64,000 nucleotides of DNA from an uncultured Pelagibacteraceae bacterium. Its GTDB lineage: Bacteria > Pseudomonadota > Alphaproteobacteria > Pelagibacterales > Pelagibacteraceae. The translations under genes and the position numbers were made by a program. Shown one piece after another: positions 1,558-5,860 of the stretch (position 1 is the stretch's first letter; every line of letters starts with the position of its first letter). The stretch spans positions 310,001-374,000 of the forward strand of contig CACASQ010000001.1 of assembly GCA_902535255.1 (NCBI GenBank), read 5' to 3'. Below the pieces are notes generated by a model. The model made no database searches, was not told the origin of the DNA, and worked only from the letters and a program-made list of their open reading frames with translations.

Positions 1558-3225
<1,668 letters not shown>

Positions 3226-3289: not shown

Positions 3290-3973
3290 CTATCCTAAAA
3301 TTTCTTTACAAAGTACTCTTGAGTGAGAATGTATTTCTTTATTAACATTTTCTAACACCTGAACTTGTTTAAAAATATTTTTCAAGTCTTTAGCTCTTAT
3401 TGTATCGAAAATAAAAAATGTTTGCTTATGAGAGTTTTTTTTCAAGAAGCTCTTATAAATTTTTAGATCATAGTGATAATCCATTGAGTAAAGAGAGAAA
3501 ATAAAATCATATTTTTTTTGAATTAAATCTAAATTTTCAAAATCAAAAATTTCAAAATTATTATTATTACTGTTCAGATTGATAAATTCTTTAGTTAAAG
3601 AAAGTTTATTATATGCTTCATTTGGATTCCAAAAATATTTAATTTTTGTTGATATGAAATTTCTTTCAATCATGTCTAAATTAAAATTTTTATGCCGAGA
3701 TAAGATGATGCTTTCAACACCGCCTACGCCGCCTCCTATAGATAAAACATTTTTATCAACCTCCCTAAAAAAATTTTTTAAAAATAAATACTCTTTTAAA
3801 GAAACTTTATAATATTCTTTTGAAATTAAATCTTTATCATTAAAATAAGAAAAAAGTTGAGTAAAAAGATATCTACCAAATAATTTTCTTAGTTTTTTTT
3901 GAGAAGCAGTCATTATTTCATTTCTTTGAAAAAGAATTAACCTAGACATATTTTTTTTTAAATTAAATTGCAT
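3290..3973 (-). CDS. Putative SAM-dependent methyltransferase-like protein
   Basis: The 227-residue protein has a Rossmann glycine-rich motif VLSIGGGVGG at 76-85, then an acidic strand end (LDMIERN near 100), and FDFIFSLYSMDYHYDL near 156-171, which fits motif IV of class I methyltransferases. No specific family was recognised and the substrate is unknown. It is the last gene of the leftward his operon, beginning 1 base after the sulfotransferase-like gene. Residue use is extreme for Phe, Lys and Asn, like its two neighbours. Could also be a degenerate Rossmann protein without activity. Confidence 0.55.
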   Translation of the reverse strand: MQFNLKKNMSRLILFQRNEIMTASQKKLRKLFGRYLFTQLFSYFNDKDLISKEYYKVSLKEYLFLKNFFREVDKNVLSIGGGVGGVESIILSRHKNFNLDMIERNFISTKIKYFWNPNEAYNKLSLTKEFINLNSNNNNFEIFDFENLDLIQKKYDFIFSLYSMDYHYDLKIYKSFLKKNSHKQTFFIFDTIRAKDLKNIFKQVQVLENVNKEIHSHSRVLCKEILG

Positions 3974-3974
3974 T

Positions 3975-4742
3975 TTAAAGATCTAATTTATTCGAACTGA
4001 ATATTTTCTTTTGGAAAAAATTCAAATATAGAAAATAAAAAATTCTTTTAAAATTCCATATCTTAATTGTTCGCGAAACATTTTTTTTATTGGGAAATTG
4101 AAGCTCTTGTTCATTTATTTTTAGTATGTCAGAGAAATCAACAAAAATTTTTTTTCCCGATTTTTTATCAAATTTTATATATATGAAGTCTTTTTTAAAA
4201 ATTTTTTTCCAATTGTTAATAATCTTTCTATTATCTAAGTAATAATTTTGGCTTAAGTAATAGTTTTTATTTTTTTTGTTAAAATAATATCCAAATTTCT
4301 CAACTTTTTTTTTAAATTCAAATACACTATCAATTTTAATATTATGCCTTTGGGTCAACTGTTGTACATATAAAGAGTATAAATAAGAGTAGTCTGATCT
4401 AAAGTAAAATATAATAATAGGTTGAAAACCAAGTTGTAAAATAGTTTTTTTCAAAAATAAAATCTTTTCGAGATCATATGATAGACAAGAAAAAAACTCA
4501 GAGCTCAAAATTAAGTTGGCGTTATCTTTCTTTTCGGGGAAATAATTTTTTATCTTCTTAAAGTCCTTGGTATCAAAATATTTGAAAAGTTTTTGATTGT
4601 GTATTGTATTTTTAAAAAAATTATTTTCTTTAATGACCCTAAAATTCTCTCTTTTTAATTTTTCTTTATTTAAAAACAGAAAACTTTGAAGTGAAGTGCT
4701 ACCTGTCTTAAAATTTCCAATATGCAGAAAGCACTTTTTCAT
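3975..4742 (-). CDS. Sulfotransferase-like protein
   Basis: Near the N-terminus, residues 7-22 read HIGNFKTGSTSLQSFL, matching the 5'-phosphosulfate-binding loop (HxGxxKTGSTSLQ) of PAPS-dependent sulfotransferases of the carbohydrate/heparan type. A second segment near residues 116-130 (IIFYFRSDYSYLYSLYVQQ) resembles the 3'-phosphate-binding region (R...S..SxYxQ). The 255 residues are compact but plausible. Family knowledge: these enzymes move sulfate from PAPS to sugars or other acceptors. The adjacent upstream gene is APS kinase-like, which would make PAPS. The acceptor is unknown. Confidence 0.65.
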   Translation of the reverse strand: MKKCFLHIGNFKTGSTSLQSFLFLNKEKLKRENFRVIKENNFFKNTIHNQKLFKYFDTKDFKKIKNYFPEKKDNANLILSSEFFSCLSYDLEKILFLKKTILQLGFQPIIIFYFRSDYSYLYSLYVQQLTQRHNIKIDSVFEFKKKVEKFGYYFNKKNKNYYLSQNYYLDNRKIINNWKKIFKKDFIYIKFDKKSGKKIFVDFSDILKINEQELQFPNKKNVSRTIKIWNFKRIFYFLYLNFFQKKIFSSNKLDL

Positions 4743-4745
4743 TAA

Positions 4746-5183
4746 TTAAATTTCAAACTTTGATTTTAAATCATTTAATATCAAATGTTTTATAACCTCT
4801 GCGTTTTTCTCTTTAACTTCAAAATCAATCTCTTGGTTGTCTGGTATTTCAAATATCTTATTTGTGTCCTCAAATCTTCCTTGATCAATAGTATTCATCC
4901 AAATAATATAATCTGCACTAAATTTTTTCCGAGCATCGTTAGTTGGGCATACAAAGTCGGTTACTACGTTGTTGTTGTTTTTAATCTCTTGATCAGAAAG
5001 CTCATTCATTCTGTTTGATTGCCTTATTCTACCTTCTAAACTGAAATCCCAATCGTTAAATTTTTTTCGTACCTCATCAGCATTTACCCTACTTGCTTTA
5101 ATTAAAGGAGCGAGCTTATCACTTAAGGTTGTTTTACCAGAACCTGGGAGTCCCATAACAAGGATTTTAATTTTTTTTCTCAT
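4746..5183 (-). CDS. Adenylylsulfate kinase-like P-loop kinase
   Basis: The 145-residue P-loop protein has Walker A GLPGSGKT at 11-18, then NADEVRKKFNDWDFSLEGRI (about 34-53), which parallels the APS-kinase block DGDNVR..LGFS..DR, and FVCPTNDAR near 77-85 in the place of the family's ISPYR..R. It is about 30-40 residues shorter than a typical CysC. Family knowledge: APS kinase makes PAPS from APS and ATP. Its start overlaps the hisG stop by 4 bases, and a sulfotransferase-like gene follows. No ATP sulfurylase is in the window. It might instead phosphorylate another small molecule. Confidence 0.65.
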   Translation of the reverse strand: MRKKIKILVMGLPGSGKTTLSDKLAPLIKASRVNADEVRKKFNDWDFSLEGRIRQSNRMNELSDQEIKNNNNVVTDFVCPTNDARKKFSADYIIWMNTIDQGRFEDTNKIFEIPDNQEIDFEVKEKNAEVIKHLILNDLKSKFEI

Positions 5184-5860
5184 ATTTTTAAATTATTTAA
5201 AAAATTGTTAATTCTTTTTTTTACTTTTTTTGCTAATAGTAAACAAGCACAAGATTGAAGTATCACTCCATCTTTAACAACTCTCAGATTATTGTCTTCT
5301 AAAGTTTTTCCTGAGGAAGTAATATCAGTGATTATTTCAGACGAGCCTATAAAAGGATATGTTTCAGTTGCGCCTAGGCTTGATATCAGTTTGTATTGAG
5401 TGACACCTTTTGAGATTAAAAAATTATTTGTTAGGTTGGGATATTTTGTTGCAACTCTTAATCTAGTATTTCTTTTAGATCTTATATCGAAAGATACCTC
5501 CTCTAGATCTGCAATAGTTTGTACATCTATCCAATCATCTGGTACTGCAATTACGAGATTTGCATATCCAAAATCTAGTTTTTTTTCAATTAAAATTTTA
5601 TCACGTAAAGTTTTTTTTGACTCATTAAGAAGATCTAGACCAGATATACCGATATCTAAAGTACCATCTCCCAATCTTTGTATAATCTCTTTAGCATGCA
5701 AATAAATTATTTTAAGATTAGGCTTATTCTCAATTTCACCAAAATAATTTCTTTCTTTATTGCTGTTTAAGATTTTAAGTCCTAAATTTTCGAAATAAGA
5801 TTTGGCTTTTTCTTTTAATCGGCCTTTACTTGGTAATCCAATTGTAATTATATCTCTCAT
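5180..5860 (-). CDS. hisG: ATP phosphoribosyltransferase catalytic subunit, short form
   Basis: The 226-residue protein has the short (HisG-S) architecture lacking the C-terminal ACT-like regulatory domain. It opens ITIGLPSKGRL, has DIGISGLDLL near 72-81, and the PRPP-site region TDITSSGKTLEDNNL near 178-192. Family knowledge: it condenses ATP with PRPP in the first step of histidine synthesis; short forms need HisZ to be active, and hisZ lies immediately upstream with a 4-base overlap. Downstream, the APS-kinase-like gene also overlaps by 4 bases. Length and motifs are normal. Confidence 0.95.
   Translation of the reverse strand: MRDIITIGLPSKGRLKEKAKSYFENLGLKILNSNKERNYFGEIENKPNLKIIYLHAKEIIQRLGDGTLDIGISGLDLLNESKKTLRDKILIEKKLDFGYANLVIAVPDDWIDVQTIADLEEVSFDIRSKRNTRLRVATKYPNLTNNFLISKGVTQYKLISSLGATETYPFIGSSEIITDITSSGKTLEDNNLRVVKDGVILQSCACLLLAKKVKKRINNFLNNLKI

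Follow-up and report, generated by a model that had tools for sequence, protein, structure and literature searches.

Genes between hisG and groEL

The window analysed here, a 64,000-nucleotide stretch of an uncultured Pelagibacteraceae bacterium (assembly GCA_902535255.1, contig CACASQ010000001.1, positions 310,001–374,000, forward strand), carries three small genes behind hisG, for a kinase resembling adenosine 5'-phosphosulfate (APS) kinases, a divergent sulfotransferase-like protein and an S-adenosylmethionine (SAM)-dependent methyltransferase. They were analysed together with a nucleotidyltransferase (NT) that accompanies the kinase in many relatives. The features are as follows, in window coordinates:

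5180–5860, minus strand: hisG (PF01634, 1.2e-33), the last histidine gene ahead of the cargo slot
4746–5183, minus strand: APS-kinase-like P-loop kinase of 145 residues (PF01583 match), without the NT domain carried by many relatives
3975–4742, minus strand: sulfotransferase-like divergent protein of 255 residues, with the loop HIGNFKTGSTS and the segment FRSDYSYLYS, in which Ser stands 8 residues past Arg
3290–3973, minus strand: class I SAM-dependent methyltransferase of 227 residues (PF13489), partner uncertain
1567–3225, plus strand: groEL, convergent, the far boundary of the cargo slot (recognised by eye from the sequence)

The kinase start overlaps the end of hisG by 4 bases, and gaps of 3 bases and 1 base separate the kinase from the 255-residue gene and the latter from the methyltransferase gene; the coordinates of the open reading frames (ORFs) agree with the junctions given in a preliminary description of this DNA. 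The three ORFs are not chance frames, since all of them recur in other genomes, with nearest relatives at 73% (kinase), 66% (255-residue protein) and 58% (methyltransferase) identity. Among 247 SAR11-family genomes, the kinase was found in 127 (including 6 weak matches), the 255-residue protein in 7 and the methyltransferase in 16 (including 4 weak matches). Only the window's own genome (G000) has all three genes behind hisG, and a conserved three-gene pathway was not supported. Elsewhere, hisG is followed by the same pair of kinase and 255-residue genes in the same place (G229), by an NT-fused kinase and the 255-residue gene (G151), by the 255-residue gene with the kinase located elsewhere (G171 and G145), by a fused kinase (G125) or by the methyltransferase gene alone (G187), and groEL is likewise the neighbour in G229, G171, G151 and G187. 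The hisG–groEL gap is thus a small cargo slot that holds differing subsets of genes. In a kinase tree of only 138 columns with many open forks, the window kinase and the standalone one of G229 grouped together (100/99), apart from a second group that includes the fusions behind hisG in G151 and G125. This split suggests that the slot was filled more than once. The idea that the window kinase is a fusion that merely lost its NT was dropped, as the tree pairs it with the standalone G229 kinase instead.

The window kinase contains the P-loop GLPGSGKTT and matched the Pfam families AAA_33 (1.3e-8) and APS_kinase (PF01583, 1e-6), the latter with 29.3 bits against a gathering cut-off of 21.1, which bears out its initial recognition as a P-loop protein with APS-kinase-like blocks. 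No other protein of the window's genome matched PF01583. Relatives are often about 257–281 residues long, with a second domain appended, or else have a separate gene for about 120 residues downstream. All 18 kinase residues invariant across 36 kinase–NT fusions (34 viral) are retained in the window kinase, and the 19 best matches of the fusion profile in the Protein Data Bank (PDB) were all APS kinase domains (2yvu, 1.8e-13). For L102, a bacterial relative with the fused form, the AlphaFold2 (AF2) model reached a mean predicted local distance difference test (pLDDT) score of 88.5 and matched APS kinases with Z scores up to 19.3, compared with 16.4 for the best gluconate kinase row; the rows of this fold search were taken up by the kinase half, so that neighbours of NT could not show. 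Moreover, the kinase half of the Halocatena fusion passed the cut-off of the apsK equivalog TIGR00455 (147.8 > 138.7). The window kinase is thus APS-kinase-like in sequence, with a putative catalytic activity to match.

The loop of the 255-residue protein had been read as one that binds 3'-phosphoadenosine 5'-phosphosulfate (PAPS), which held up in part: the motif is present and profile–profile comparison supports the likeness, but neither PF00685 nor PF13469 matched. Alignment of a seven-member family against eight Pfam-confirmed sulfotransferases with hhalign gave a probability of 85.6% (E 5.5e-6, residues 2–127), with KTGSTSLQ aligned to the PAPS loop and FRSDYSYLYS to the second motif, compared with 0.03% for a control against the kinase profile, likewise of P-loop type. 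An Arg followed by Ser eight residues later is what we take to be the 3'-phosphate motif of PAPS-dependent sulfotransferases. By eye, this motif is found in six of the seven members (not in L037), the KTG[ST] loop also in six (KTAS in L038) and both in five. Against one canonical Sulfotransfer_1 protein, the hhalign probability of the family was only 0.46%, and a single-sequence AF2 model of the window protein had a pLDDT of 44. Pfam and NCBIfam gave no match up to an E value of 1, the best PHROGs match had an E value of 0.15, phmmer and profile searches of the PDB returned nothing convincing, and neither a phage match nor viral relatives were found. All five close homologues occur in kinase-bearing genomes (p 0.035, uncorrected). 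The protein appears sulfotransferase-like by profile–profile comparison only and was kept out of the sulfotransferase family.

The third gene was confirmed as methyltransferase-like through Methyltransf_23 (PF13489; 1.7e-7, 31.5 bits, cut-off 27). One relative (L046) adjoins an O-antigen ligase (Wzy_C, 68.6 bits), which makes a surface glycan plausible as the acceptor of the sulfate.

The nucleotidyltransferase and its genomic settings

NT is a domain or gene of about 120–126 residues, which in phages, haloarchaea, relatives and other bacteria is often fused to the kinase or stands behind it. In the window's genome, it is a separate gene outside the window (G000:C1:94777–95139). Its motifs GR[WYF]QPxHx[GS]H and ISATxIR-like are marks of HxGH nucleotidyltransferases; both His residues and the Ser and Thr are invariant in sets of 9 and of 36 sequences, with a Gly-to-Ser replacement in Microvirga, and the G000 copy retains 27 of 27 residues invariant across the 36 fusions. 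The PF01467 cut-off of 21 was passed by the NT of L137 (31.7), Halocatena (32.3) and L005 (22.3) and narrowly missed by the other SAR11 copies scanned (20.3, 19.6 and 20.0). By motifs and profile matches, NT belongs to the HxGH nucleotidyltransferase superfamily (PF01467), the G000 copy itself being judged by its motifs. The L027 and L137 proteins matched CTP_transf_like only in Pfam and not PF01747; the L137 protein also matched no CysD or CysN model and stayed below the NMN adenylyltransferase (NMNAT) equivalog TIGR01527 (33.5 of 181.2 bits). Among the 247 SAR11-family genomes, 160 carry NT (including 3 weak matches).

In genus g1, to which the window's genome belongs, the neighbourhood of NT is conserved and comprises genes for a cystathionine-beta-lyase-like protein, a major facilitator superfamily (MFS) transporter, CADD, NT and TauE. 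Across a sample of 40 of the 54 other NT-bearing g1 genomes, AprA was found in the NT region of 36, and NT stood directly before aprM in 34, in the order NT–aprM–aprB–aprA–116-residue ORF–TauE (L420–L459; e.g. L422:6096–10050). These shares are those of the standalone NT, since at least 5 of the 14 genomes left out carry a kinase-fused one. AprA matched 1jnr (2.6e-198) and AprB matched 3gyx (1.3e-31); AprM is a putative assignment by place and size. At this place, the apr genes are missing from G171, G018 and the window's genome, in the last of which TauE is the direct neighbour of NT; fourteen 20-kb stretches of the window's genome (L406–L419) contained no long flavoprotein-like ORF, and tblastn found no AprA in them, in the window or in L057, an absence that covers the NT locus and those stretches only. 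A CysQ-like phosphatase is encoded near NT (TIGR01331, 193.5 bits, below the cut-off of 228.8). Separately, a CADD-family putative folate protein (L057:7179–7850; TIGR04305, 299.7 bits) adjoins NT in the window's genome, and a CADD gene lies near NT in most sampled g1 regions.

In other sulfur oxidisers, sat accompanies apr; NT occupies the position in the apr cluster expected of an ATP sulfurylase. SAR11 has been described as lacking cysDNCHIJ and sat but possessing AprBA, which may detoxify sulfite, and Table 3 of the same source gives cysC and aprA identical distributions over seven SAR11 strains (PMC5069961). Pelagibacter AprBA belongs to the sulfur-oxidiser lineage, in which aprBA is always preceded by aprM (PMC2211403).

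A second setting was found in another alphaproteobacterial family, where CbiX, SUMT, sulfite reductase, CysH, DUF2061, kinase and NT genes form an operon in the same order in all four genomes (L311–L314; also L137), gene families having been assigned by models on L137 and L312. The CysH proteins carry CC and CxxC in four of four cases, which we take to be the mark of APS-reducing enzymes. An operon with such a CysH needs APS from sulfate, for which NT is the only candidate there. CysD was not found in the four genomes (a weak match in G501 lies on CysH), nor was PF01747 in three of them (68–89% complete).

The third setting is viral. The best 80 of at least 579 NT-encoding viral stretches in IMG/VR (L182–L261) have kinase and NT together in 79 cases, 42 fused and 37 as separate neighbours, with one intervening gene in L193, L226 and L229 and one contig cut off. 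Of these 80 loci, 36 have a sulfotransferase gene within a distance of 6 kb, and 25 have one within 30 bases (L257 being counted through an intervening ORF), compared with 0 of 80 uvsX control loci (Fisher 1.7e-13, treating loci as independent; clustering at 70% identity gave 23 groups). The hidden Markov model used for sulfotransferases included 6 of 17 sequences from kinase–NT loci, which favours the phage count, and the control stretches were shorter (628 kb vs 782 kb), with kinase or NT also present in 6 of 80. Of 37 sulfotransferase matches, the L191 fragment and one L258 match were left out of the Pfam scan, and the remaining 35 all matched both PF00685 and PF13469. Viewed in reverse, when loci were selected by one phage sulfotransferase family, 11 of 23 held kinase or NT (the query's contig included). 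Five cultured phages of Stenotrophomonas, Xanthomonas and Clavibacter carry both halves, as one ORF in the three examined. Haloarchaeal plasmids provide the fourth setting; on them, a sulfotransferase gene directly precedes the fusion in all eight examined, of nine found. In Microvirga lotononidis, the fusion stands between a sulfotransferase gene and cysD–cysN, whose CysN lacks a CysC kinase domain; by eye, the sulfotransferase is NodH-like and lies behind nodIJ-like genes. In Rhodoferax, a sulfotransferase gene is followed by the kinase gene with a 4-base overlap. As a side observation, seven of the eight haloarchaeal plasmids (L460–L465 and L101) have a YqcI/YcgG-family gene behind the fusion, and in L100 that gene lies upstream on the opposite strand.

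The corresponding genome scan was represented by the best 80 of 377 matches, nearly all from SAR11. In other SAR11 genomes (L105–L181), kinase–NT lies among Rieske, GcvT/DmdA-like and DddP-like genes, with a methanethiol-oxidase-like gene in 14 of 76 loci; these labels come from one scanned representative each, all below equivalog cut-offs. Such proximity hints at organosulfur metabolism.

The preliminary description had also remarked on the lack of an ATP sulfurylase, and a genome-wide search agreed, finding neither PF01747 nor CysD in the window's genome (84.6% complete). Both were likewise not found in G627, G630, G345 and G364, which are 99–100% complete and all carry kinase–NT. Among the 247 SAR11-family genomes, canonical Sat (PF01747) occurs in 10 and CysH over the cut-off in none; SAR11 PAPS is thus probably not destined for assimilatory sulfate reduction, a role that was dropped. 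NT occurs in one of the seven SAR11 genomes confirmed to have CysD followed by CysN and in 159 of the 240 others (p 0.0085, uncorrected for descent). The sub-threshold CysH matches of G004 and G011 (not CysD) and G048 (a CysD fragment, no NT) were left out of this count, and four weaker ones lay outside the check. The g1 genome G106 has neither kinase nor NT and carries a Sulfotransfer_1 gene before cysDN; this stretch (L320:566–3576), in which the canonical sulfotransferase gene follows a cupin-like gene and precedes cysD–cysN, exemplifies the ordinary system within genus g1.

Proposed pathway and competing explanations

We propose, with a probability of roughly three in four, that the window kinase makes PAPS for the 255-residue protein as sulfotransferase, and that the separate NT supplies APS as an ATP sulfurylase. 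Gene content, homology and conserved linkage are the basis, from which we infer the catalytic activities, the reaction directions and the acceptor. NT would act as an NMNAT-like enzyme that interconverts ATP plus sulfate and APS plus pyrophosphate (PPi), the window kinase (4746–5183) would phosphorylate APS to PAPS, and the 255-residue protein (3975–4742) would pass the sulfate of PAPS to an acceptor, most likely one on the cell surface, with the methyltransferase possibly adding an optional extra decoration. The CysQ-like phosphatase encoded near NT might remove the by-product 3'-phosphoadenosine 5'-phosphate (PAP). In most sampled g1 genomes, NT before aprMBA probably runs in reverse, converting APS and PPi into ATP and sulfate and ending sulfite oxidation; in the window's genome, NT would have remained where the apr genes are missing.

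For NT as a whole, we consider it likely that it represents a third, independently evolved ATP sulfurylase family of about 120 residues, derived from NMNAT-like enzymes, bidirectional, and serving AprMBA, CysH and APS-kinase/sulfotransferase settings. This assignment is proposed because its partners in all these settings share one metabolite, APS. NT would gain ATP from sulfite in SAR11 as the missing step of sulfite oxidation, feed sulfate assimilation in the other alphaproteobacterial family and, with APS kinase, form a minimal PAPS synthase in phages, haloarchaea and some SAR11 for the sulfation of surface or other molecules.

Several observations weigh against these proposals. NT is nearest in sequence to NMN adenylyltransferase (1f9a, 5.9e-12) and matches no known sulfurylase family. 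The window kinase missed the apsK equivalog cut-off (26.5 vs 138.7 bits), and is therefore named APS-kinase-like; inspection by eye also shows a shorter lid than in canonical APS kinases. None of the seven members of the 255-residue family matched a sulfotransferase model (PF00685/PF13469). No sulfotransferase was found in 44 of the 80 viral loci, within the available stretch, and in many other SAR11 genomes kinase–NT lies beside genes resembling those for dimethylsulfoniopropionate (DMSP) and betaine metabolism, not beside sulfotransferases. Microvirga has cysDN next to its fusion, 9 of the 10 SAR11 genomes with Sat also carry NT, and G273, the fourth genome with the assimilatory operon, has a PF01747 gene elsewhere; the Microvirga and Sat cases show that NT does not strictly replace the known sulfurylases. 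A kinase could not be recognised in 36 of the 55 g1 genomes with NT, which fits an enzyme acting on APS independently of the kinase but shows a role wider than sulfation. Finally, kinase and NT lie 219 kb apart in the window's genome. The compact set for activating and transferring sulfate that the preliminary description had suggested survives in the likely roles of the kinase and the sulfotransferase-like protein but not as a conserved trio, and the likely source of its APS, this distant NT, had been overlooked.

One competing explanation for NT itself keeps the kinase as an APS kinase and lets NT dispose of APS otherwise, for instance by converting APS and phosphate into ADP and sulfate, with APS arriving from AprBA or from outside. 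The position of NT with aprMBA, the agreement of cysC and aprA over the seven strains tabulated in PMC5069961 and the many NT genomes without a kinase would all suit this. It is nevertheless improbable: no AprA was found near NT in the viral (0 of 80), haloarchaeal (0 of 8) and other alphaproteobacterial stretches (0 of 9, the four assimilatory-operon loci plus five), so that APS there would have to come from sulfate, and NT bears the HxGH and ISATxIR motifs of nucleotidyltransferases that handle ATP and PPi. Even less probable is a two-step activation unrelated to sulfate, similar to NadR, in which a compound is phosphorylated and then adenylylated or cytidylylated. The closest known relatives of NT are indeed NMN and phosphopantetheine adenylyltransferases, and P-loop kinases vary widely in substrate; yet both sequence and fold place the kinase nearest to APS kinases, the four kinds of context share APS with no common nicotinamide or sugar pathway seen, and NT without kinase is common, which a kinase-first pathway disallows. 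NAD salvage of the NadR kind was dropped, as no NAD genes were noticed beside NT.

The cargo of the window raises doubts of its own. One reading, which we consider unlikely, denies the 255-residue protein a sulfotransferase role and has the hisG-slot kinase serve another purpose; in its favour are the lack of any family match, the poor alignment with a single canonical sulfotransferase and the low-scoring AF2 model. The family-level alignment speaks against it, as it spans both the loop and the Arg–Ser motif and has no counterpart with kinases, and so does the adjacency of the 255-residue and kinase genes in G000, G229 and G151, together with the confinement of close homologues to kinase-bearing genomes. 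We attach hardly any weight to the cargo being junk or a remnant with a kinase bereft of its partner: the separation of kinase and NT and the variable slot content would be expected of a remnant, but the complete retention of invariant residues in both proteins, the junctions of 1–4 bases and the presence of the kinase and 255-residue genes at the corresponding site in G229 would not. The preferred reading remains PAPS formation by NT and the kinase for sulfate transfer.

Relation to known systems

PAPS synthases (human PAPSS1, Aquifex 2gks) resemble the fused relatives in achieving two-step PAPS formation on one chain with a kinase half of the same fold. They differ in that an NMNAT-like domain of about 120 residues would here replace the far larger Sat and that the kinase comes first, followed by NT; in the window's genome, the two are unlinked genes. 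With NadM (1f9a), NT shares the GR[WYF]QPxHxGH, ISxTxIR and NPF motifs, but it is shorter and has an invariant Arg in a VRD motif, a VPNIxxxxYGRxVGY segment and linkage to APS genes. The aprMBA clusters of sulfur oxidisers (Apr lineage I, PMC2211403) correspond to SAR11 aprM–aprB–aprA with a nucleotidyltransferase gene alongside, except that NT stands in the expected place of sat, which SAR11 is described as lacking (PMC5069961).

Already in print are SAR11 cysC (PMC5069961), the sulfotransferases SAR11_0312 and SAR11_1215 (PMC2217521) and viral cysC, listed under assimilatory sulfate reduction (PMC12713726). These probably represent the same kinase family and kind of transferase as described here; the accessible parts of these sources propose no NT partner, PAPS pathway or sulfation role. 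A literature search, with preprints and most subscription journals outside its scope, found no report of an NT-type ATP sulfurylase in the material available. The novelty would lie in the protein family, the reaction itself being known.

SAR11 bacteria rank among Earth's most abundant organisms. Their description as lacking sulfate activation (cysDNC, sat) yet having AprBA leaves APS without a known fate (PMC5069961). If the proposal is true, an NMNAT-like sulfurylase beside aprMBA completes sulfite oxidation with a gain of ATP and gives SAR11 PAPS for sulfation. It would also be a third solution to a central reaction of the sulfur cycle, easily missed owing to its resemblance to nicotinamide nucleotide adenylyltransferases, and the viral kinase–NT–sulfotransferase neighbourhoods (36 of 80 loci, from at least 579 NT-encoding stretches) would become readable as sulfation modules.

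The rhizobial nodPQ–nodH genes form the cluster for Nod-factor sulfation. The likeness lies in sulfate activation genes beside a sulfotransferase gene, and the Microvirga fusion is found in what appears by eye to be such a cluster; the difference is that the window's genome has no CysD match. The predicted membrane protein DUF2061, fused to CysN in Microvirga (L095:11175–12764) and standalone before kinase–NT in L137 (4865–5125), is linked to sulfate activation in two settings.

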